A stretch of DNA of 64,000 nt from positions 620,001-684,000 of the forward strand of contig NZ_CP017077.1 of assembly GCF_001742225.1 (NCBI RefSeq), in the 5' to 3' direction. Made by a program: the position numbers and the translations under genes. Origin of the DNA: Novosphingobium resinovorum (GTDB taxonomy: Bacteria; Pseudomonadota; Alphaproteobacteria; Sphingomonadales; Sphingomonadaceae). Below, piece by piece: positions 23,340-49,063 of the stretch. Each line of letters begins with the position of its first letter. Within the stretch, counting starts at the first letter, position 1. The notes beneath the pieces were generated by a model, which did no database searches, was not told where the DNA came from, and worked only from the letters and a program-made list of their open reading frames with translations.

Positions 23340-24434
23340 TTACTCTGCCGCAATGTCCTGTGGCGTGCGGGGGTCGTGGATAGGACAGCCGTTGACCCGG
23401 CCGCGAAAGGCGGCCGAGCGACGGTAGGTTTCGTTGCGAGCGCGGTTGATGTTGCCCAGCGGCTGGTGCGCGGTGACCCCCCGCCAGATGTTGAAGCTGA
23501 GCGCGTCGTCCTGCGGGTCGCTCGTCCCGTGCTGCCAGCTGATCTGCGGTTCGATCTCGAGCGTGGCCACCGTCACGAACGGGCTTTCGTCTTCGCTCCA
23601 TTCGACGGTCGAATCCTCGACGGGCATCTTATCGAGATCGGTGTTAAGCTGGACACGCAGTTCCCATTCGCCACCATGCTCGATTAGAGCGCGGCTGACG
23701 TCTTCGCGCAGGGCATCGGGGCGGTCGGTCACGTCGATCTTCACGCCCGTCAGCGAGGTTAGCGAAGCGGCCACCGGCACGAGGCTGAACTTCGCGATAT
23801 AGTCGCCGAACCGATAGGGGGTCTGGGAATAATAGGTTTCGCCGAGCGGGTGGACCTGGGGGGCGCCCCCCAACTGTTGGATCGTCGGCGATTCGTAGCC
23901 CACGGCGGACAGCGCGGCGTTGACGCCCTGCAGCACCGAGGAGAGCACTTTCTTGCCGCCTTCGGCAACATCCGTGGTCTTGGCCAGCAGTTTCAGGTTT
24001 TTGAGAAACGCCGCGGTATCGGGAGCGGTGAAAACCGGCCCGTTGACCATGATGAAATCCTGCGAGGTTTCGCCTTCCGATCCGGGCAGCCGATCACCGG
24101 GAACATCCATTACCTTTAGCGCCAGCCCGCGCGGAAGGGCAATCGCATCGTCGAGCACATCGCCTGCATTGGTGGAGATGCGGATGACGGCGTCGAAGCT
24201 GGCAGGATGCGAAAAAATCCCCTGGGCGAGGTCCGGGGGAAGCCCGGCGGTCACTGTCAGGCGGCCGATGGCAATGCCATGTGCCTTGGCGTGAACGGCC
24301 CGGAAACCTGTCTTGTAATCCTGAGCAGTGGTTTGCTGAATGGAATCGAGTTGTTCTTCAAGCCCCCGTATAGTTTCTGCCTCATCCGGCTTCACTTGCT
24401 CGACAGAAGGGGAAAAACGGACGGGATGGGTCAT
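23340..24434 (-). CDS. Catalase-family (heme-dependent) protein, small clade
   Basis: The 364-residue protein matches the SrpA/YbjN-adjacent group of catalase-like proteins that are shorter than true catalases. The family active-site histidine is seen in FRAVHAKAHGIAIGRLTV; substrate-channel and heme blocks include ALPRGLALKVMDVPGDRLPG and DFIMVNGPVFTAPDTAAFLK. The C terminus has SFNIWRGVTAHQPLGNINRA, conserved in this group. Such proteins may act as peroxidases or fatty-acid hydroperoxide enzymes instead of classical catalases; activity here is unproved. AGGA lies about 11 bases before the ATG. Confidence 0.85.
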   Translation of the reverse strand: MTHPVRFSPSVEQVKPDEAETIRGLEEQLDSIQQTTAQDYKTGFRAVHAKAHGIAIGRLTVTAGLPPDLAQGIFSHPASFDAVIRISTNAGDVLDDAIALPRGLALKVMDVPGDRLPGSEGETSQDFIMVNGPVFTAPDTAAFLKNLKLLAKTTDVAEGGKKVLSSVLQGVNAALSAVGYESPTIQQLGGAPQVHPLGETYYSQTPYRFGDYIAKFSLVPVAASLTSLTGVKIDVTDRPDALREDVSRALIEHGGEWELRVQLNTDLDKMPVEDSTVEWSEDESPFVTVATLEIEPQISWQHGTSDPQDDALSFNIWRGVTAHQPLGNINRARNETYRRSAAFRGRVNGCPIHDPRTPQDIAAE

Positions 24435-32534: not shown

Positions 32535-32711
32535 AGCTTGCTCTTCGGCCAGCCTGGCCGCCGCAATAAGGCTTTGGCCGGTTTTTACTGCAGCATTGAC
32601 GGTCATCGTGACGGCCATGCCGTTGGGGCCGTCCAGAATGACGACCCCGTTCTCGGCACTTGCAACGCCGGGATCGTCTCTTGGCTGGGGCGGGTTCGGC
32701 TGTATCGTCAT
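32517..32711 (-). CDS. Small protein coupled to the Crp/Fnr regulator
   Basis: A 64-residue protein, MTIQPNPPQPRDDPGVASAE then NGVVILDGPNGMAVTMTVNA and a terminal charged helix. Its ATG overlaps the stop of the Crp/Fnr gene (ATGA), which strongly supports translation. I do not recognise the family, but similar short proteins ending in an amphipathic helix occur in sphingomonads. It might be a partner or a modulator of the regulator; this is inference. The 3' end overlaps the convergent transglutaminase gene. Confidence 0.65.
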   Translation of the reverse strand: MTIQPNPPQPRDDPGVASAENGVVILDGPNGMAVTMTVNAAVKTGQSLIAAARLAEEQASRREC

Positions 32712-33457
32712 GACGGGTGCTCTAGATGAGAGGGCAGGACGGGGTCGGGATCTTCCAGATAGAGGTAATCCGGATCAAACTGGCCACGTGCGACAAGGCG
32801 CTTGGCGTCCAGTATTTCGACGAGCGAAGAGCGGAAGATGCAGACTTTCTCTTCCCGCAGCTGGCGCATGACCCTGTTCACATGAACGTTGGTCAGGCCG
32901 CATATTTCGGCGATATCACTCTGGGTCAGCGGCAGGGCAAACCGGCGGCCGTCGCTCAGCCCGGCCGAAAACAGCCGAGCATTGGTCTCGCACAGAAAAT
33001 GCGCGACCCTTCCCATTGCATCCATGCGCCCGAGGCGGAACAGCCAGGCGCGGTGGATCGCAGCATCGATAAGTGTGGAGAACCATAGTTTGCGGCCCAG
33101 TTGCGGCTGCTCCTCGATGATCGCATCGAGCTGTTCATGGCGTACGATCGCCACTGTGGCGGCAGTCATTGTTGCCACGTCATGGTCGAGTGTCTGGAGC
33201 GGGTAGGCGTGCAGATCGACAAAGTCGCCGGGCACATGGATTGCCACCAGCTGGCGTAGTCCGTTGCGATCGTCGATGTACCGTGACAGAAAACCGTCAA
33301 CCAGCAGAGTGCTTTCGTGCAGTGCGGTTCCCGCGCGGATGATGATCTGGCGAGCTTCCAGCGTCCTCACTTCCTCTATCGCCCCTTCGAGGCAAAGGCG
33401 TTCGTTGGCGCTGAGACTGGCTCCGCGCTTGTATCTGAGAAAGCGATCAGTAAACAT
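32708..33457 (-). CDS. Crp/Fnr-family transcriptional regulator
   Basis: A 249-residue protein with a cyclic-nucleotide-binding-like beta barrel (IIIRAGTALHESTLLVDGFL, VAIHVPGDFVDLHAYPLQ), a dimerisation helix and a winged HTH with LTQSDIAEICGLTNVHVNRV MRQL. There are no N-terminal cysteines for an Fnr-type iron-sulfur cluster. AAAAGG lies about 6 bases before the ATG at 33457; the longer frame is upstream noise. It diverges from katE across a region holding a Crp/Fnr-type box, so it may control katE and itself. It is coupled to a 64-residue protein. Confidence 0.9.
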   Translation of the reverse strand: MFTDRFLRYKRGASLSANERLCLEGAIEEVRTLEARQIIIRAGTALHESTLLVDGFLSRYIDDRNGLRQLVAIHVPGDFVDLHAYPLQTLDHDVATMTAATVAIVRHEQLDAIIEEQPQLGRKLWFSTLIDAAIHRAWLFRLGRMDAMGRVAHFLCETNARLFSAGLSDGRRFALPLTQSDIAEICGLTNVHVNRVMRQLREEKVCIFRSSLVEILDAKRLVARGQFDPDYLYLEDPDPVLPSHLEHPS

Positions 33458-33556
33458 CGATGCCTTTTCAATGCTGATGGTGTGGTCCGGCGCACACGCG
33501 CATGATCTGAACTGCTGCTGGCAGGGAAGTGTTGCGCGCATCTGCGATAAATCGTC

Positions 33557-35917: not shown

Positions 35918-37048
35918 ATGCCGCTTCCCGTTTCGTCCGGCGGATCGGGCTCCTTGCGTATCGGCATCATTTCACATCTCAAGTACCCGATTGCCGAGCC
36001 GTTTGCCGGCGGACTGGAAATGCACACGCATCTCCTCGCCCGGGCATTGCGGGATCGCGGCCACGCCGTGACCGTCTTCGCCTCGTCCCGGTCCGACGCA
36101 GCGCTCGGGCTGGAGGCCGTGTGCGACGCGACGGCACTGGACGAGGTCGGAACGGCGGAGGCGCACGATGTCGCCTTTTTCAAGGAGCATCACGCTTATC
36201 TCACGCTGATGAACACCCTGCGGCATCGCGACTTCGACGTGATCCACAACAATTCCCTGCATTACCTGCCGGTGTCGCTGGCGGACACTTTACCGATGCC
36301 GATGGTGACGACGTTCCACACCCCGCCGTTCTGCTGGCTGGAAAGCGGCGTGCGCATGTGCTCGGCGGCCAATCACACTTTCGTCGCTGTCTCGCGCTCT
36401 GTCGCCCGTTTGTGGGATCACGTCGCCCCAAGCGATCAGGTTATCCTGAACGGGATCGACCTTGAGAAATTCGGTTTCAGTCCGCAGCCCGACCCTGAGC
36501 CCTATCTGGTCTGGTACGGGCGGATTGTCCCCGAAAAGGGTCTGCACTTCGCCATCGAAGCCGCGCGATCGATCGGGGTGCGGCTGCGCGTCGCCGGGCC
36601 GATCCTGGATCAGGTGTATTTCGACGGCATGATCAAGCCGCATCTCGGCGACCGCGTCGTTCATGTCGGGCATCTGGATCACCTGGCGCTGGCGCGTTTC
36701 GTCGGCGGTGCAAGGGCCTTCCTGTGCACTCCCACCTGGGACGAACCATACGGCCTCGTCGTCGCCGAGGCGCTTGCATGCGGGGTGCCGGTCGCCGCCT
36801 TCGCCCGCGGTGCAATTCCGGAAATTCTCGACGAGAGCTGCGGCGTACTGGCAACGCCCGATGACGTTGCATCGCTCGCGGCTGCGGTGCGAGGAGCAAT
36901 GCGGCTCAGCCGCTACGATTGTCGCAGACGTGCCGAACAAACCTGCGATGCCCGGCGAATGATCGAGAGCTACGAAGCGTTGTACAATCGCCGGATCGCG
37001 ATGCACGCTGAGAGCGAATTTTGCGAGGTCCCGCTCTTACATGCTTGA
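35918..37048 (+). CDS. GT4 glycosyltransferase (cluster gene 1)
   Basis: A 376-residue GT-B transferase. The acceptor-side motif is FAGGLEMHTHLLARALRDRG, and the nucleotide-sugar side has LVWYGRIVPEKGLHFAIEAA and the E-x7-E motif in EPYGLVVAEALACGVPVAAF. A GGAGG site lies 7 bases before the ATG at 35918, preferred over a longer frame from 35846 that overlaps katE. No membrane segment. First of seven genes that overlap one another by 4-19 bases; the donor (a nucleotide-hexose or GlcNAc) cannot be read from sequence. Confidence 0.9.
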   Translation: MPLPVSSGGSGSLRIGIISHLKYPIAEPFAGGLEMHTHLLARALRDRGHAVTVFASSRSDAALGLEAVCDATALDEVGTAEAHDVAFFKEHHAYLTLMNTLRHRDFDVIHNNSLHYLPVSLADTLPMPMVTTFHTPPFCWLESGVRMCSAANHTFVAVSRSVARLWDHVAPSDQVILNGIDLEKFGFSPQPDPEPYLVWYGRIVPEKGLHFAIEAARSIGVRLRVAGPILDQVYFDGMIKPHLGDRVVHVGHLDHLALARFVGGARAFLCTPTWDEPYGLVVAEALACGVPVAAFARGAIPEILDESCGVLATPDDVASLAAAVRGAMRLSRYDCRRRAEQTCDARRMIESYEALYNRRIAMHAESEFCEVPLLHA

Positions 37049-37997
37049 CGGCGAACCGACAAATCCGCTGGCTGCGGCGTGCGACTTTTGCGTGTGCGTT
37101 CCGGCTCGCGACGAGGAGGAGCGCCTTCCGGTGCTGCTCGCGGCACTTGCGCGGCAGACGCTGCCAGGCGTCATCCGCGTGGTCATCGCGCTCAACAACA
37201 CCACCGACGCGAGCCTTGCTGTCGTCGCCGAGGCCCGCGCCGCGTTCAAGGGGCGATTGCATGTCCATGTCGAAGACGTGACGTTTCCGCCCGGCCTTGC
37301 CCATGCGGGATCTGCGCGCCGCCTGGCAATGGATACTGGGTTGTCGCTTCTGGCAGGTTCAGCGCAGGGCATTCTGGTCAGCACCGATGCCGATACGTGC
37401 CCGCCCGCCTGCTGGCTCGAAAACATCGCTGCGGCCTTTGGCCGCGGTGCGGATCTGGTTGGCGGACGCATCGAGATTGACCAGGCTGAGCCTTTGCCAC
37501 CTGAAGTTGTGCGCCTGCGCCATGCCTGGGACAAGTACTGGAACGTGGTGCGAGCCATCGAAGACGAAGTTGATCCCCTCCCCTGGAACCCGCCGCCGCG
37601 TCATGGCGATCATACCGGCGCATCGCTGGCGATCCGCGCGCAGCTTTATCGCGAGTGCGGCGGGGTCCCGCTGCTTCCGAGCGGAGAAGATCGCGCCCTC
37701 GTCGCCGCCGGCATCGCTCACGGCGGCCGCCTCGCCCATCCCGGCAATGTCTACACCTTCGTCTCGCCGCGCCGTGATGGGCGGGCCGAAGGCGGGATGG
37801 CCCGCGCCATGGAGGAACTCTTCGAACTGGCGGCAACGTGCGCAGCCCCGGCCGCACCAAGCTACGAGCAGTGGCGCGAACGAGCGCTCTGGCGCCGCGG
37901 GATGCGGTCGCTGCCAGACGGACATGCACGGATACCGCGGGAAGAGATGCTGCTTGCGCCCATGCGCCGTGACATGAAACTGGAGATTGGACGGTGA
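37041..37997 (+). CDS. GT2-like glycosyltransferase (cluster gene 2)
   Basis: A 318-residue GT-A fold transferase without membrane helices. The N-terminal CVCVPARDEEERLPVLLAAL block binds the nucleotide, and VSTDADTCPPACWLENI carries the DxD metal site. HTGASLAIRAQLYRECGGVP and GEDRALVAAGIAHGGRLAHP match the acceptor half. The start overlaps the upstream GT4 by 8 bases. The second half (~260-318) is Arg/Ala-rich and poorly conserved. Specificity unknown; with its neighbours it should extend or decorate the same product. Confidence 0.88.
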   Translation: MLDGEPTNPLAAACDFCVCVPARDEEERLPVLLAALARQTLPGVIRVVIALNNTTDASLAVVAEARAAFKGRLHVHVEDVTFPPGLAHAGSARRLAMDTGLSLLAGSAQGILVSTDADTCPPACWLENIAAAFGRGADLVGGRIEIDQAEPLPPEVVRLRHAWDKYWNVVRAIEDEVDPLPWNPPPRHGDHTGASLAIRAQLYRECGGVPLLPSGEDRALVAAGIAHGGRLAHPGNVYTFVSPRRDGRAEGGMARAMEELFELAATCAAPAAPSYEQWRERALWRRGMRSLPDGHARIPREEMLLAPMRRDMKLEIGR

Positions 37998-39037
37998 TCG
38001 ACCGCCCGATCGGCTATTACGTTCACCATCATGGCGCAGGCCATCGCGCGCGCGCACAGGCAATTGCTGCCGCCAGCGAACGCCTTATCGTCCTGCTCGG
38101 CACCGGCCTCGGCGAAAACGGGATCGATCTTGCCGATGATCGCCCTCTTTCGGGCCTGTTCGATGGCTTTGACGGCGCCTCCTCACGCCCCGATGCGCTG
38201 CATTATGCTCCGCTCGATCACGAGGGGGTGCGCAGCCGCGTCGCTCGCATCACTGGCTGGATTGCCCAGGCGCGCCCTGCGATGATGGTCATCGATGTCT
38301 CTGCCGAAGTGGCGATGCTGGCTCGGCTGGCCTCGGTGCCGACGATCTGCGTACGGCTTAGCGGAAACAGGGACGATCCGGCGCACCTCGAGACGTTTCG
38401 CGCCGCATCGGGGTTGCTGGCCCCGTTTCACCCCGCCTGCGAATCCGCTGCGACGCCCGAATGGGTACGGGCAAAGACGCTTTACCTGCCAGGCATAGCT
38501 CAGGCACCGGCGGAGGCAGCACCGCTGGAAAAGGTTGTCCTCGTGGTCTTCGGCCAGGGCGGACCGACAGGTGATGGGGACAAACTTGCCAAGGCGGCCC
38601 GCGCGTGGCCGGGTTGGCGATGGCGCGTGATCGGCCCCGCTGCGGTGCCTCCGCAGCCACCCGGCAATCTGGAATTTGCGGGATGGGTCGCGTCACCAGA
38701 GGCCGAGATCGCGCGCGCTGCAGTCGTCATTGGTGCAGGCGGCAACGGTCTGGTCGGGGCGGTGATGGCGGCCGACCGGCCTTTCGTGTGCATACCCGAG
38801 GATCGTCCCTACGCTGAGCAGCATGCCACTGGCCATGGCCTTAAGGCGCTGGGCGCCGCGATCGTGCTGCCGGAATGGCCCTCTGCATGTTTCTGGGGGC
38901 GTATTCTCGATGATGCCGTGTCCATGTCCGGCGAAGGCAGGCGACGTTTGCGCGATCCGATGGCTGCCGAGAAGGCGGCGCAGTGGCTGGCTCAGCACGC
39001 CTCGCGTTCCCTTTCGCTGGCGGCACCGGGGCGATGA
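37994..39037 (+). CDS. MurG-like GT-B glycosyltransferase (cluster gene 3)
   Basis: The 347-residue protein begins with GTG overlapping the upstream stop (GTGA). GYYVHHHGAGHRARAQAIAA at the N terminus and GAGGNGLVGAVMAADRPFVC with PEDRPYAEQHATG near the C terminus match the GT28/MurG-type C-terminal UDP-sugar-binding fold. FGQGGPTGDGDKLAKAARAW corresponds to the linker strand. MurG relatives add UDP-GlcNAc to lipid- or sugar-linked acceptors; a GlcNAc donor would fit the PIG-L deacetylase four genes on, but this is inference. Confidence 0.82.
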   Translation: MIDRPIGYYVHHHGAGHRARAQAIAAASERLIVLLGTGLGENGIDLADDRPLSGLFDGFDGASSRPDALHYAPLDHEGVRSRVARITGWIAQARPAMMVIDVSAEVAMLARLASVPTICVRLSGNRDDPAHLETFRAASGLLAPFHPACESAATPEWVRAKTLYLPGIAQAPAEAAPLEKVVLVVFGQGGPTGDGDKLAKAARAWPGWRWRVIGPAAVPPQPPGNLEFAGWVASPEAEIARAAVVIGAGGNGLVGAVMAADRPFVCIPEDRPYAEQHATGHGLKALGAAIVLPEWPSACFWGRILDDAVSMSGEGRRRLRDPMAAEKAAQWLAQHASRSLSLAAPGR

Positions 39038-40164
39038 ACAGCTTAAACCCGTCACCCGGCATCGCCGCGGATCCGGTTGGATGTGCGCGGGCGATCGCCG
39101 ATCGGCTGGCCGATCTTGGTGCGCGGTATGATGCCGCGCCGGTCTTCCCTCTTGAAAGCATGCGCTGTCTCGCGGCCGCGGGGCTGCATAGGCACTTTGC
39201 GCCGGCCGCGAGCGGCGGCACGGTCTTCGCGGATACGCGGGAGCGATATCGCATCCTTATGGACGTCCTTCGCATCGCCGGGCGGGCCGACCTTAGTGTC
39301 GGGCGATTGCTCGAAGGGCATGTGAACGCGCTATTGCTATTCGAGTCGTACGGATCGGCGGAGCAGAACCGGCAGCTTGGGCGCGTGCTCGATGCCGGAG
39401 GCTTTTACGGGGTTTGGGCCACCGAACCGGCGCCGGGTGTCTCGATCGAGCTGGCCAACCGCACTCAGATGAGCCTGAAGGGGGCAAAGAGCTTCGCGAG
39501 CGGCGCAGGCGGACTGGCGCACGCGATCGTCACCGCGAGGCAGCCCGAGGGGGGGCGACGGTTGGTAGTGGTGGAAGGCGACGAAGCGGATCGTGCCGAT
39601 CTCTCCGGCTGGCGCGTGCGCGGCATGCGAGCAAGCAACAGCGGCCTTTATGACCTTACGGGATTGCGGATCAAGGACACCGACCTGCTTGGACATCCCG
39701 GCGACTACGATCGCGAGCCGCGCTTCACGACCGGGGCCTGGCGCTTCGCCGCCGTGCAGCTTGGCGGCATCGAGGCGCTGCTGGGGGAGACCCGGCAGGC
39801 CATGTCGGACACGGCCCGGGCTGATCCATTGCAACGCGCCAAGTTCGCTGACTGCGTCGTCGCTGCACGTACCGCTTATCTATGGGTTCGCGAATGCGCG
39901 ATGCGCGCCGCGAGCGATGACCTCGATGGACCAGCCTTTGCGCGCCTGACGCGCGGCGTTGTCGAGCGTGCGGGGCTCGATGTCATGGAACTAGCCGCGC
40001 GTATCGTCGGAACGCGCAGCGCGATGGACGGCCAGCGCATCGACAAGATAAGCCGCGACTTGTCGCTCTACCTGCGCCAGGCCGGACCCGACTATGCCCG
40101 CGATCAGGCGGCTTTGACGTGGCTCGATCACGACGCCTGGGGCGAGCAGGACGTGTTGTGGTGA
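39034..40164 (+). CDS. Acyl-CoA dehydrogenase-family flavoprotein (cluster gene 4)
   Basis: A 376-residue protein with the acyl-CoA dehydrogenase fold: an N-terminal helical domain, the central beta domain with GVWATEPAPGVSIELANRTQ and LKGAKSFASGAGGLAHAIVT, and a C-terminal helical domain (RFAAVQLGGIEALLGETRQA). It starts at the ATG overlapping the previous stop (ATGA). Dehydrogenases in such clusters may desaturate an acyl chain or act as flavin monooxygenases. I could not place the catalytic base with confidence, so whether it acts on an acyl-CoA at all is open. Confidence 0.85.
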   Translation: MNSLNPSPGIAADPVGCARAIADRLADLGARYDAAPVFPLESMRCLAAAGLHRHFAPAASGGTVFADTRERYRILMDVLRIAGRADLSVGRLLEGHVNALLLFESYGSAEQNRQLGRVLDAGGFYGVWATEPAPGVSIELANRTQMSLKGAKSFASGAGGLAHAIVTARQPEGGRRLVVVEGDEADRADLSGWRVRGMRASNSGLYDLTGLRIKDTDLLGHPGDYDREPRFTTGAWRFAAVQLGGIEALLGETRQAMSDTARADPLQRAKFADCVVAARTAYLWVRECAMRAASDDLDGPAFARLTRGVVERAGLDVMELAARIVGTRSAMDGQRIDKISRDLSLYLRQAGPDYARDQAALTWLDHDAWGEQDVLW

Positions 40165-40838
40165 CGACCAGCCTTGCTGATCGTCCCTGGCGGTCGCTGC
40201 GCTGGCTGGTGCTGGCGCCGCATGCTGACGATGAAACGCTTGGAGCCGGCGCTCTTATCGCGCAGGCCGAAGCGACCGGGCACTTCGCGGGCCTCGTCTA
40301 TCTCACTGATGGATCGGGTTCGCACCCGGCGGCGGAGAGAGGCGTGCAGCGACTGATCTGCGTCCGAAGGCGCGAGGGCGCCGGCGCGCTATCGCGGCTG
40401 ACGGGTAGTCGACGAAATCGCCCATTCCATCTGGGCTGGAAGGATGCGGCCCCCGCTGCTCCGGGCAGTTCAAAATTCGATCGTTCGGTCATGACCCTGG
40501 CATCGTTTTGCGTGCGGCTTCGGGTCGATGCGATCGCGGTTACCGCCAGGCATGAACCCCACTGCGATCACGCTGCGGCGGCTGAACTCGCCTACGCGGT
40601 GAAGGGCCGGGCAAAGCGGCGCATCGTCGTGGCTGAATATTGCGTCTGGGCCGACAGGCCCGAACCGCGTCGATACCGCGCAATCCGCTCCGACGCCATG
40701 TCGCCCGGCCTGCGTCGATACGCGCTGCAGGCGCATCGCAGTCAACTGACCGCATCCCATGGGCATGGCTTTCGATTGCCGAAAGCCATGCAGCGCATGG
40801 CCGCGCGCGACACCCTGTTCGTGGAGAGGGGCATATGA
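40161..40838 (+). CDS. PIG-L/LmbE-family deacetylase (cluster gene 5)
   Basis: A 225-residue zinc-dependent N-deacetylase. The metal motif is APHADDETLG near residue 25 (the His-x-Asp-Asp of the family) and a second metal ligand block is EPHCDHAAAAELA. Relatives remove acetyl from GlcNAc residues, as MshB and BshB do in thiol biosynthesis and PIG-L in GPI synthesis. The GTG at 40161 overlaps the upstream stop. The family makes an amino-sugar with a free amine, which gives the next gene (NodS-like methyltransferase) a natural target. That order of steps is inference. Confidence 0.9.
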   Translation: MTTSLADRPWRSLRWLVLAPHADDETLGAGALIAQAEATGHFAGLVYLTDGSGSHPAAERGVQRLICVRRREGAGALSRLTGSRRNRPFHLGWKDAAPAAPGSSKFDRSVMTLASFCVRLRVDAIAVTARHEPHCDHAAAAELAYAVKGRAKRRIVVAEYCVWADRPEPRRYRAIRSDAMSPGLRRYALQAHRSQLTASHGHGFRLPKAMQRMAARDTLFVERGI

Positions 40839-41422
40839 GCCGGCATTTCACCAGACTGACGCCGGAGTATTTCGAAAGCATGTTCCAGGGCACGGAAGAT
40901 CCGTGGAATCTTGAAACGAGTGCCTATGAAAAAGCCAAGCATGACCATACCGTGCGTATGCTGGGCAGCGGCGAATATCGCCATGCCTTTGAAGTTGGCT
41001 GCGCAAGGGGAATGCTGACCTGCCTGCTTGCTCCAGCCGTTCAGTCCCTGCTGGCAATCGACGTCAGCGGGACGGCGCTTCGCGCGGCACGAAAGCGGTG
41101 TGCTTTCTATAAGCACGTGATGTTTGCCAACATGCAATTCCCTGCGCAGGCGCCCGAGTCTGACTTCGATCTCATCGTGCTGTCGGAAGTCGTCTATTAC
41201 TGGGACGATACGGATATCAGGACGGCCGCTGCATGGGTCGCAGACCATCTGCTCCCTGGCGGGGTCATCATCCTCGTCCACTGGCTGGGCGAAACTGATT
41301 ATCCCCAAAGCGGGGACGAGGCAGTCGACAAGCTGCAGGATGCCCTGACGGGGTGTGTGCGCATCGAACGTGCCGAACGCTGCGGCGAGTATCGACTTGA
41401 TGTATGGCGCAGGACGCCATGA
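40835..41422 (+). CDS. NodS-like SAM-dependent methyltransferase (cluster gene 6)
   Basis: The 195-residue protein has the NodS N terminus (YFESMFQGTEDPWNLETSAY EKAKH), the SAM motif AFEVGCARGMLTCLLAP, ISGTALRA-type acidic loop (AIDVSGTALRAARKRC), and LIVLSEVVYYW. NodS N-methylates the deacetylated amino-sugar end of rhizobial Nod factors. The ATG overlaps the deacetylase stop (ATGA), so the two steps are likely coupled. A free-living sphingomonad would not make Nod factors: there is no NodA/NodC homologue in the window. Confidence 0.88.
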   Translation: MSRHFTRLTPEYFESMFQGTEDPWNLETSAYEKAKHDHTVRMLGSGEYRHAFEVGCARGMLTCLLAPAVQSLLAIDVSGTALRAARKRCAFYKHVMFANMQFPAQAPESDFDLIVLSEVVYYWDDTDIRTAAAWVADHLLPGGVIILVHWLGETDYPQSGDEAVDKLQDALTGCVRIERAERCGEYRLDVWRRTP

Positions 41423-42255
41423 GTACCAGCGTATTGACGATAGTACGCAATCGTGCCGGACATCTGGCCCAGCTTGTCGAAGGGCTGCGCCGCAGCGACA
41501 CGGCGCCCCGTGAACTCATCGTGGTGGATATGGGCAGCACAGTGCCGGTCTCGGTCGAGGAAACCCCGTTCCCTTGCCGGATCGAACGGCTGGACTGTGA
41601 GGGCCTTCCTCTCGCAGCAGCGCGCAACGCGGCGGCGCGCGCGGCAAAGGGCGACACCTTGCTGTTTCTCGACGTGGATTGCATTCCGATGCGCGGCCTG
41701 ATCGCGGCCATGAAGGACGTGCTCGATAGCGAGGATGGACTGGTCTGTGCGCAGGTTCGTTACCTGGGGCAGGATGACGCGCGATCAGACTGGGGAGAGG
41801 CCGACCTGCTTGCACGCTCATCGGGACATCCGGAACGCCGTTTTCCGGCATCAGGGCTGCGCCGGGTCGAGAATGCCGGTCTGTTCTGGTCACTTGTCTT
41901 TGGTATTCGCCGCGAACGCTACGCCGGCCTTGGCGGGTTCGACGAGGCTTTCACCGGTTACGGCGCCGAGGACACCGATTTTGGATTTAGGGCGAAGGCG
42001 GCACACGTACCACTGTTATTCATGGGCGGACCCGGCGCCTTTCATCAGCATCACGATGTTTTCGAGCCCCCGCTTCGGCATTTCAACGATATTTTGCGCA
42101 ACGCACGCACGTTTCACGATAAATGGGGAACATGGCCGATGGAAGGGTGGCTCAGCGCCTTCGCGCAATCCGGTCTTGTCGAATGGGATGACAGGAGTCT
42201 GATAAAGCTGCGTGACCCGACCCGCAAAGAAATTGCCGACGCGCTGGTTGATTAA
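41419..42255 (+). CDS. GT2 glycosyltransferase with galactosyltransferase-like C terminus (cluster gene 7)
   Basis: A 278-residue GT-A transferase with LTIVRNRAGHLAQLVEGLRR at the N terminus, the DxD motif in LLFLDVDCIPMRG, and the C-terminal ED motif in TGYGAEDTDFGFRAKAAHV. FHQHHDVFEPPLRHF completes the acceptor side. The ATG at 41419 overlaps the methyltransferase stop (ATGA). It is the last gene; the facing terminator at 42280-42300 belongs to the convergent small gene, and no terminator facing this strand was seen. Sugar and acceptor unknown. Confidence 0.88.
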   Translation: MSTSVLTIVRNRAGHLAQLVEGLRRSDTAPRELIVVDMGSTVPVSVEETPFPCRIERLDCEGLPLAAARNAAARAAKGDTLLFLDVDCIPMRGLIAAMKDVLDSEDGLVCAQVRYLGQDDARSDWGEADLLARSSGHPERRFPASGLRRVENAGLFWSLVFGIRRERYAGLGGFDEAFTGYGAEDTDFGFRAKAAHVPLLFMGGPGAFHQHHDVFEPPLRHFNDILRNARTFHDKWGTWPMEGWLSAFAQSGLVEWDDRSLIKLRDPTRKEIADALVD

Positions 42256-42279: not shown

Positions 42280-42300
42280 AAAAACCCCGCCGAAGCGGGG
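42280..42300 (-). terminator. Intrinsic terminator of the small CsbD-like gene
   Basis: Read on the minus strand, CCCCGC-TTCG-GCGGGG forms a 6-base GC stem with a stable tetraloop, followed by TTTTT. It directly follows the 59-residue gene. Confidence 0.8.
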
Positions 42301-42309
42301 TCAATCGTT

Positions 42310-46492: not shown

Positions 46493-49063
46493 TCAACTGA
46501 TAGGTTCCAGGCCGAGCAGTTCCTCGGCCGCTCGCGCGAGATTATGGGCGGTGTAGGGCTTTTGAACCACCATCCTCGCCCTGTGCTCATCGGGAAGCTT
46601 CGCTTGCTCCCCGTAACCCGACGCGAAGAAGAACGGCACGCCCATTTCCAGCAACCGGTCCGCGACCGGGAAGCTCGTCTGGTCACCAAGGTTGATGTCG
46701 AGGACTGCAAAGTCCGGGGCGTAGCCATCGAGCGCGTCATGGGCGGCTTCAACCGTCGATACCGCGGTGAGTTCGGCACCAAGCCGGGTCAGGATATCTT
46801 CCGCATCGAGGGCGATGATCAGGCTGTCCTCGACCAGCATTACCGACCGTCCGCACAGCAGGTCCGCCGGCGGCGCATTCTGTGCGTGATGCGGGGGCGC
46901 CGGAAGCTTCACGTACGGCCCCTGATGATTGCGCGGGACGGAAACGTGGCGCGCCGGAATGCGGAACCTTGCCCGTACGCCCGCAGGATCGTAATGGATT
47001 TCAGAGGAGCCCCCCAGGTCATATGGCACCGAACGGTCGACGATCGTGGTACCAAAACCCTTGCGTGTAGGCGGCGTTACCGGCGGACCGCCTGCTTCTT
47101 GCCATGTGAGGACGAGGTCATTGGCATCATTGCGATCCCAGGCGATGCGTACTTCGCCGTCGCCCGACAAGCTGCCGTACTTTGTCGAGTTCGTGACCAG
47201 TTCGTGGATGACGAGCGCCATCGTTGAGTAGGCTTGCGGATTGAGCAGCAGCGGCGGGCCTTCGGAGCAGATCGATGTTTCCTTGTCGGCGGCAAATGCC
47301 GCCGCCTCCGCGTCGATGAGCGCTTGCAATGGGGCGGGTCCCCAGTGATCGTCCGTGATCTGATTGTGCGCGCGGGCAAGCGCATGGATGCGTCCATCGA
47401 CCACCTTCACGAAATCGCGCACTGCATCCTCGTCGGGCTGCGATTGGCGGATCAGGCCGCGAATGACGCCAAGGATGTTGCGAACACGGTGGTTGAGTTC
47501 CGCGATCAGCAGCTCCTGGCGCGCATTGGCTTGATGCCGCTGCGCCGCAGCCTCGTCCGCAAGACGCAGGACGACTTCGATGAGCGTTGCCCGCAGTGTT
47601 TCTGCCACCCGCATTTCGGACGAGGTAAACGGCCGCGAGCGGCCCTCCACGTTCTCACGCCACTCGGCAAAGCTTTCGCGCGGCGTCAGGCGTGAGCCAT
47701 TGGGACCGTAGGCGATGGGCTTGTGCGGGTCACCGGCCCAGCGCACCGATTCCCGCATCTCCGAGCGGAACAGCACGACATAGTCGCGCGGCGAGCGGGA
47801 AATCGGAATGGCAAGCAGCCCCGAAGCTTGGGGAGCGAATGCGGCGGCCTTGTCGACTAACGATCCGATGTGGTCCGTGGCAAACACCTTGCCTGCCGCT
47901 GTCCCGTTCAGGGCCCGGACAATGCGGCGGAAGTCATCCGTCGGGGGCGTCACGCCGGAGAAAGCATAGCTGCCGTTTAACCACACCCCGACACCATCGG
48001 CCGGGATCGCGCTGGTCAGGATGTCGGCAAGCCAATCAGGATCGTTGAGCAGGGTTTCATCTGACGCGACGGCACCCAGAAGCTGGTCCGAGATATCGCG
48101 CGCGCGGCGCTCGTACTCGATGAGTTCACGCCGCTCGCGGCTCTCGAGCCGCATCGAGAACATCTGGGCGAAGAGTTCGCTGACCGAACGGCGCTCGAAG
48201 GTAGGCGCGCGCGGGGAATAGTGATGGCAGGCGAACAAGCCCCACAGCTCGCCATCGACCAGGATGGATATCGAAAGAGATGCCTCGACGCCCATGTTCT
48301 TGAGGTATTCGATATGAATGGGCGAAACCGAGCGCAGCACGGACAGCGAAAGATCGAGTGGCTTGCGGTGCTCGTCGAGCGCGGGCACAATTGCGACGGG
48401 CACGCAGCTTACATCCCGGATGACCCGGATGAGGTTGCGCTTGTAGAGGGCTCTGGCCTGGCGGGGAATATCGCTCGCCGGGTAATGCAGCCCTCTGAAG
48501 GAGCCAATGCCCGACTTGCAGGCTTCGGCGACAACCTCGCCCGCACCGTCGGGTGCAAACTTGTAGACCATGACCCGGTCATAGCCGAGCAGCGCGCGAA
48601 TTTGGCGGGCACCTTCCTTGTAGAAGGCTGGCAGGTCCGGCTGGTTATCGAGCCTTGTCATCATAGAGCGGACGGCGCCCGATGCATCGCCATTGCTGTG
48701 AGCGCCCGGCTCGGCTTCGATTATGATCTGGCCGCGCGAGTTGTGGATCGCGATGTCGAAGGGAGGGCCGTTCTCGCTGATCTGGCACCCGAACATGCGT
48801 TCGACCGTGTCCGGGGAAATCAGATAGGCGACCCTGTTGCGCAAGTCATGGACGAGCTTGGGCGGAAGGAGCTGAGTCAGCGGCGTTCCGATGGCCGCCT
48901 GGGCATCGAACGGCAGGAACTCGCCAAGATTTGCCGAGACGCGCGCGATGATCCAGTCAGTGCTGACCGCAATGAGGAATCCGACCGGTTGGATCGCCCC
49001 CAGGAGGTGAATCGGCTCCCGGTCGCAGTTCGTCAGGTCGACATGAAATTCCGCGTCAGCCAC
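46493..49063 (-). CDS. Bacteriophytochrome hybrid kinase (PAS-GAF-PHY-HWE kinase-REC)
   Basis: An 856-residue red/far-red photoreceptor. The biliverdin-binding Cys13 is in DLTNCDREPIHLLGAIQPVG; the GAF domain carries the chromophore-pocket PASDIP motif (LHYPASDIPRQARAL), and a PHY domain with the tongue region follows (~340-500). The kinase is HWE/HisKA_2 type: LIAELNHRVRNILGVIRGLI (His ~525), with HELVTNSTKYGSLSG in the ATP site. The C-terminal receiver has DFAVLDINLGDQ (Asp ~789). HWE kinases often feed the PhyR-EcfG stress pathway in alphaproteobacteria. No heme oxygenase for making biliverdin is visible here. Confidence 0.94.
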   Translation of the reverse strand: MADAEFHVDLTNCDREPIHLLGAIQPVGFLIAVSTDWIIARVSANLGEFLPFDAQAAIGTPLTQLLPPKLVHDLRNRVAYLISPDTVERMFGCQISENGPPFDIAIHNSRGQIIIEAEPGAHSNGDASGAVRSMMTRLDNQPDLPAFYKEGARQIRALLGYDRVMVYKFAPDGAGEVVAEACKSGIGSFRGLHYPASDIPRQARALYKRNLIRVIRDVSCVPVAIVPALDEHRKPLDLSLSVLRSVSPIHIEYLKNMGVEASLSISILVDGELWGLFACHHYSPRAPTFERRSVSELFAQMFSMRLESRERRELIEYERRARDISDQLLGAVASDETLLNDPDWLADILTSAIPADGVGVWLNGSYAFSGVTPPTDDFRRIVRALNGTAAGKVFATDHIGSLVDKAAAFAPQASGLLAIPISRSPRDYVVLFRSEMRESVRWAGDPHKPIAYGPNGSRLTPRESFAEWRENVEGRSRPFTSSEMRVAETLRATLIEVVLRLADEAAAQRHQANARQELLIAELNHRVRNILGVIRGLIRQSQPDEDAVRDFVKVVDGRIHALARAHNQITDDHWGPAPLQALIDAEAAAFAADKETSICSEGPPLLLNPQAYSTMALVIHELVTNSTKYGSLSGDGEVRIAWDRNDANDLVLTWQEAGGPPVTPPTRKGFGTTIVDRSVPYDLGGSSEIHYDPAGVRARFRIPARHVSVPRNHQGPYVKLPAPPHHAQNAPPADLLCGRSVMLVEDSLIIALDAEDILTRLGAELTAVSTVEAAHDALDGYAPDFAVLDINLGDQTSFPVADRLLEMGVPFFFASGYGEQAKLPDEHRARMVVQKPYTAHNLARAAEELLGLEPIS

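Follow-up and report, generated by a model that had tools for sequence, protein, structure and literature searches.

A widespread bacterial operon that may produce an N-modified amino-sugar glycoside

Results

The seven-gene cluster and its proposed pathway

We analyzed a 64,000-nt stretch of DNA from Novosphingobium resinovorum (hereafter the window; GCF_001742225.1, NZ_CP017077.1, 620,001-684,000), with coordinates counted from window position 1. The seven overlapping plus-strand genes that a preliminary description had recorded at 35918..42255 were confirmed as a cluster. They encode four glycosyltransferases (GTs), a flavoprotein with the acyl-CoA dehydrogenase fold (ACAD), a PIG-L de-N-acetylase and a NodS-like methyltransferase (MT). 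We put at about 0.52 the probability that the cluster is an operon whose enzymes synthesize, under stress, a glycoside carrying an N-modified amino sugar. The operon is real, widespread and, so far as our literature searches reach, undescribed; among the papers returned by searches on the gene combination, none could be recognized by its title and abstract as an account of the operon. The genes, all on the plus strand, are as follows.

35918..37048, plus: GT4 glycosyltransferase (Pfam PF13439/PF00534)
37041..37997, plus: GT2a, the GT2 glycosyltransferase of the widespread core (PF00535; DAD motif conserved in 113 rows)
37994..39037, plus: GT-B, a MurG-like third glycosyltransferase of the GT1/GT28 (MurG) superfamily, assigned by distant profile and fold similarity, without a Pfam match
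39034..40164, plus: ACAD, the flavoprotein, nearest to the group D flavin monooxygenases DszC, TdsC and MsuC; signature EGHxNA ... YLRQ
40161..40838, plus: PIG-L (LmbE-like) metal-dependent de-N-acetylase, with H21, D23, D24 and H137 conserved
40835..41422, plus: MT (PF05401, 6e-20), a putative methyltransferase using S-adenosylmethionine (SAM); best PDB match NodS 3ofj (7.5e-19), then 4isc
41419..42255, plus: GT2b, a second GT2 glycosyltransferase (alternative start 41404)

In the proposed pathway, GT2a, joined in alphaproteobacteria by GT4, GT-B and GT2b, would build a short glycoside or glycolipid bearing N-acetylglucosamine (GlcNAc). PIG-L would then hydrolyze the N-acetyl group and free the amine, MT would methylate the freed amine with SAM, and the flavoprotein would act on the sugar as a monooxygenase, possibly at nitrogen, and not as an acyl-CoA dehydrogenase. 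The catalase gene katE is probably co-transcribed with the cluster. The order of the enzymes is deduced from the chemistry of their families; we infer the substrates, the sequence of steps, the sites of methylation and oxidation, and the biological role.

Conservation of the cluster

A contig scan with a 13-row ACAD alignment matched 584 stretches, of which 569 were confirmed; the best 80 were kept, and these 80 loci are thus the closest relatives rather than a random draw. All seven families were found in 65 of them, across Sphingomonadales, Caulobacterales and Hyphomicrobiales, and in some of the remaining 15 the locus is truncated where the contig stops. ACAD, PIG-L and MT were present in 80 loci each, GT2a in 79, GT-B in 69, and GT4 and GT2b in 68 each. 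So far as the listing shows, gene order is constant, with the exception of L083, in which the two halves face each other; the apparent disorder of L038 is an artefact of sorting stop-to-stop frames by their left ends, and that of L065 possibly likewise. Lack of any conserved order had been named beforehand, in the preliminary description, as something that would make a common pathway unlikely, and the cluster came through that test.

Some relatives are more compact. L085 and L088-L096 carry just ACAD, PIG-L and MT plus a convergent GT2a, and the same four genes occur in Deinococcus sp. NW-56, Nostoc sp. UHCC 0926, Komagataeibacter and Bradyrhizobium (one plasmid locus each in Deinococcus and Nostoc; our counts cover Pseudomonadota). 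The compact loci thus mark out GT2a-ACAD-PIG-L-MT as the core with the wide distribution, to which GT4, GT-B and GT2b have been added as an extension. GT2a was not detected at a Roseomonas core locus, and MT is split from ACAD and PIG-L by an intervening helicase gene in D. radiodurans (L011). On a Sphingobium xenophagum plasmid (L005, 10911-11959) the GT-B gene is annotated as two frames. A GT2a-ACAD fusion on a Methylobacterium plasmid (L016) is not claimed: although its frame is open, the roughly 100-residue stretch between the domains looks out-of-frame.

Co-occurrence when unlinked

We searched 398 evenly sampled Pseudomonadota genomes for ACAD at a cut-off of E 1e-30. ACAD was found in 30 genomes, which is a lower bound, and the core was also seen in four further genomes, in loci around MT matches (L184, L185, L187, L188). 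Within 5 kb of the 29 sampled ACADs other than our own lay PIG-L in 25 cases and MT in 27 (28 with a fused copy); both stood beside 23 (24 with the fused MT), and some GT2 beside 24.

GT-B tends to accompany ACAD even where the two are apart. GT-B occurred in 17 of the 398 genomes, 14 of them ACAD-positive as against 1.3 expected (hypergeometric 4e-15, not corrected for kinship), and one more of the 17, G074, also carries the core, scoring more weakly (L188). GT-B is distant from ACAD, or on a different contig, in seven of the 14 ACAD-positive genomes (G271, G151, G028, G356, G345, G024, G354). In G151 and G028, the ACAD-MT loci (L127, L131) have no detected PIG-L; PIG-L stands instead beside GT4-GT2a-GT-B-GT2b (L190, L191), on another contig in G151 and about 280 kb away in G028. 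As side observations, GT-B, GT2b and GT4 form a separate module in L192-L200, which in L195-L199 includes a frame of about 700 residues holding a weak GT4-like stretch and which in L196 and L200 lies in genomes without ACAD at the cut-off used. In L139, L145, L146 and L148, all of one family, a second PIG-L gene lies downstream of the core, with a TreY-like gene near.

Fusions of MT with de-N-acetylases

L134 holds PIG-L and MT in one open frame whose junction ends look natural. Nine other sampled MT matches sit in frames of more than 700 aa, and in each of the eight examined a NodS domain is fused with a polysaccharide deacetylase of NodB type (PF01522). Six of the eight also have an N-terminal GT2; the other two are a frame starting at a contig end and a frame of 753 aa. 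These proteins (L175-L182; genomes G071, G329, G035, G123, G274, G253, G043, G051) span about 750-1200 aa. As predicted from their domains, they show that a NodS-like domain also pairs with a de-N-acetylase of a type other than PIG-L, and they possibly represent a second sugar-amine pathway.

Given the conserved linkage, the co-occurrence when unlinked, the PIG-L gene in the other half-cluster and the fusions, the seven-gene cluster is almost certainly one pathway. The common pathway suggested at the outset is supported by the conserved order, the intact PIG-L metal site (below) and the fusions of NodS-like MT with de-N-acetylases.

Predicted activities of the enzymes

LmbE-like proteins have the motif HXD1D2 plus a distant His, with a spacer of 97-148 residues, according to PMC4101496. 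PIG-L of the cluster carries H21-A-D23-D24 and H137 with a spacer of 112, and its metal-site residues are 97-100% conserved in 124 rows; the predicted metal site is intact. MT scored 72.3 bits with the Pfam NodS model (gathering threshold 24), which places it in the NodS superfamily, and it shares DPW and EVxYY motifs with NodS 3ofj; the SAM-motif residues E53, G55, C56 and G59 are kept in 98-99% of 122 rows. The NCBIfam NodS equivalog model gave 88.2 bits, below its cut-off of 300. A deacetylated, probably N-methylated amino sugar, as first suggested, is supported by the apparently intact PIG-L site and by the MT-deacetylase fusions.

The best PDB match of the MT in the L145 operon is 4ISC (E 7.5e-71 over 164 residues), and the MT family therefore already has a solved structure. 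4ISC is a structural genomics structure from Pseudomonas syringae; the PDB names it simply 'Methyltransferase'. MurG models of Pfam and NCBIfam did not match GT-B, whose MurG likeness is one of distant profile and fold. An anti-phage role was considered and is unsupported, as PADLOC models matched none of six of the seven cluster proteins; MT matched part of the PADLOC model mad2, covering positions 278-405 of its 492 (E 1e-11).

By sequence profile, the best PDB matches of the flavoprotein were MsuC, TdsC and DszC, and the same three made up the top ten structural rows (Z 37.0-38.3). Its nearest kin in sequence and predicted fold thus appear to be group D flavin monooxygenases, by a modest margin. 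The NCBIfam models SfnB and DszC gave 54 of 431 and 31 of 850 bits, far under their cut-offs.

Transcription unit and stress neighborhood

Three features flank the seven genes.

32708..33541, minus: Crp/Fnr-family regulator, divergent from katE (so annotated in a near-identical plasmid locus)
33634..35865, plus: katE, encoding a long catalase (open frame from 33610)
42284..42301, plus: terminator-like hairpin with 7 base pairs (6 G-C), followed by CAATCGTTTT, directly 3' of GT2b, the last gene

Among 27 sequences, the window included, that have KatE ahead of GT4 on the same strand, 25 show a gap of 23-53 bp between KatE and the extrapolated start of GT4. The region holds 6 terminator-like sites, no excess over the 7.8 in shuffles, and the sole argument for the hairpin is its position. 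Because the gap is short and the hairpin follows the last gene, a single transcript from katE through GT2b is likely; katE is probably its first gene, and the Crp/Fnr-family gene likely its regulator. Control by an EcfG-type general-stress sigma factor was rejected: the pattern occurred upstream of none of 37 katE genes. Before core genes it was found at 1 of 75 GT4, 0 of 91 GT2a and 3 of 108 ACAD genes, and before other genes at 17 of 1563; the window has one match where 2.4 are expected. An FNR/CRP-like box between the regulator and katE was dropped: it turned up in 4 of 25 sequences where 1.2 were expected, and the window has none. By its annotation, the near-identical plasmid further has a second catalase-family gene upstream (23340-24434) and an HWE-type histidine kinase downstream (46493-49063), with more sensor kinases around.

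Within 4 kb, KatE was present at 37 and a Crp relative at 33 of the 80 closest loci. KatE was near just one of the 29 sampled loci; the katE link therefore belongs to close relatives. The sampled loci have other stress genes nearby, namely TreY at six, Mn-catalase at three, and Ku and LigD at two. Any of KatE, Mn-catalase, Ku, LigD or TreY occurred at 10 of 29 sampled loci and at none of 40 control stretches, which were arbitrary places on the same contigs in 23 of the genomes (Fisher 6e-5, a generous value since the five queries were picked after the neighbors had been seen). A single family accounts for five of the six TreY loci, another reason to call the p-value generous. The stress link proposed for the cluster is supported by this excess. 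At L145, the core adjoins isoamylase-type, alpha-amylase-family (TreY by our reading) and 4-alpha-glucanotransferase genes.

Discussion

Several observations weigh against the reading of the cluster as a stress-linked amino-sugar operon, among them the single sampled KatE, the late choice of stress queries and the kinship of the TreY loci. PIG-L was not detected at the sampled ACAD loci L127, L131, L151 and L155, nor MT at L138, and two operon-type MT genes have no ACAD nearby (L183, L186); the L183 gene is additional to the MT of the ACAD locus in the same genome (G271). Membership of the NodS superfamily would not by itself prove N-methylation, and the fused NodS-NodB proteins, as relatives only, need not make the same product. 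True acyl-CoA dehydrogenases come within 1-2 Z units of the monooxygenases (36.7 vs 37.0-38.3) and follow closely in the profile search too. By hand count, His92 of DszC, an active-site residue, aligns with Arg91 of the flavoprotein; the active-site His is not shared, and no specific reaction can therefore be transferred from DszC. Finally, at the position of the MCAD-type catalytic Glu, all 13 core flavoproteins have Ala, Gly or Pro, and 18 of 19 ACAD relatives from the same genome also lack Glu (1 Glu, 6 Asp). The loss of Glu is for that reason a weak argument against acyl-CoA chemistry, which lowered our confidence in the amino-sugar reading and raised it in acyl-chain modification, discussed below.

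The product might instead be a soluble small molecule of the cytoplasm, a compatible solute or a redox cofactor built on the glucosamine-thiol logic of MshA/MshB or BshA/BshB. The pairing of GT4 with PIG-L, the neighborhood of katE, Mn-catalase and TreY, and the lack of any transporter, flippase or polymerase listed near the near-identical plasmid locus, whose gene table is incomplete, all fit this account. We nevertheless hold it to be unlikely: GT4 and PIG-L fall far under the BshA, MshA and BshB1 cut-offs, no cysteine ligase is listed, and four GTs exceed what the thiol pathways are known to require.

Less probable still is a variant of the same pathway in which the flavoprotein acts as a dehydrogenase or oxidase on an acyl chain, giving a glycolipid whose fatty acid is modified, a modification that the preliminary description had entertained. 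The ACAD fold, the nearness of true acyl-CoA dehydrogenases in structural and profile scores, and the frequent absence of Glu among the relatives in the host genome speak for it. However, monooxygenases rank first in the sequence profile and, by a modest margin, as nearest relatives overall; an acidic residue occupies the Glu position in 7 of the 19 relatives and in none of the 13 core members; and the incomplete gene table of the near-identical plasmid shows no acyltransferase, acyl carrier protein, CoA ligase or ETF within 20 kb. The modified acyl chain is accordingly unsupported. In one relative (L004) an AMP-binding enzyme lies some 6 kb downstream of the cluster.

Sphingomonads make GSL-4A, a tetrasaccharide glycosphingolipid with free glucosamine. 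Since a free-amine glucosamine would require a deacetylase, a sphingomonad host with several GTs and a deacetylase could be thought to complete such lipids with three extra sugars. We regard this as very unlikely. The core occurs in Deinococcus and Nostoc, and in non-alphaproteobacterial genomes it adjoins genes of alpha-glucan or trehalose type; MT and the flavoprotein would be left unexplained. Moreover, at the cut-off used, ACAD is present in just 38 of 298 sampled genomes of the host's family (none of the five other genomes listed for the genus) and is sometimes plasmid-borne, unlike a core membrane lipid. The word 'deacetylase' was not found in the excerpted text of a glycosphingolipid paper (PMC13318209). 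That the genes are chance neighbors, unrelated and held together by position beside katE, is scarcely credible, being already contradicted by conservation across phyla, co-occurrence when unlinked, and fusion.

The four-enzyme module of GT2, PIG-L, NodS-like protein and flavoprotein recurs in many bacteria, often near stress genes. Should the amino-sugar reading prove right, an N-modified amino-sugar metabolite that has so far gone undescribed would be shared among bacteria, and the name 'acyl-CoA dehydrogenase' would be wrong for many genes (relatives of the flavoprotein are encoded in 569 stretches, the best 80 of which were examined). A bolder version, in which a stress-protective glycoside of at least three phyla carries an amino sugar that is deacetylated, N-methylated and N-oxygenated (to a hydroxylamine, nitrone or nitroso group), seems doubtful; such N-oxygenated amino sugars are so far known only from antibiotics.

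Comparison with known systems

KijD3 and DnmZ, sugar N-oxygenases (nitrososynthases), act on nucleotide sugars; for the cluster flavoprotein, a glycoside is the likelier substrate. The ACAD profile found them at about 4e-16 and 1e-14, outscored by MsuC, TdsC, DszC and several ACADs. With a larger profile, no nitrososynthase of this type was found at 1e-12, and none stands among the 50 structural rows listed, which excludes nothing. Two papers describe KijD3 and DnmZ as group D flavin monooxygenase homologs acting on amino sugars (PMC5481743, PMC6165268).

The mycothiol and bacillithiol pathways (MshA/MshB, BshA/BshB) resemble the cluster in combining a GT4 with an LmbE-like deacetylase, and the HXDD and His residues are present. 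They differ in that the cut-offs of TIGR03999, TIGR03449 and TIGR04001 were not reached: the BshA, BshB1 and MshA models gave 43 of 274, 36 of 183 and 27 of 463 bits, respectively. The gene table of the near-identical plasmid locus, which is incomplete, shows no cysteine ligase within 20 kb.

In 2-deoxystreptamine aminoglycoside pathways of the BtrM/BtrD type, a GT adds GlcNAc, a PIG-L enzyme frees the amine, and the sugar is then oxidized and methylated by further enzymes. The cluster would share this pattern; however, no cyclitol or sugar-nucleotide genes are listed at the near-identical plasmid locus, and its flavoprotein differs in fold class from the counterpart in those pathways. BtrD is listed as LmbE-like in PMC4101496.

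Nod-factor synthesis offers the same overall logic. There, nodB, nodC and nodS encode a de-N-acetylase, a GT2 and a methyltransferase that act together, and the cluster likewise combines a GT2, a putative GlcNAc de-N-acetylase and a NodS-superfamily methyltransferase. It differs in that no NodA or NodC is found at the near-identical plasmid locus, and in having PIG-L in place of a NodB-type deacetylase, plus the added flavoprotein. If the amino-sugar reading holds, enzymes of Nod-factor type would represent a single application of a broader set of tools for tailoring sugar amines.

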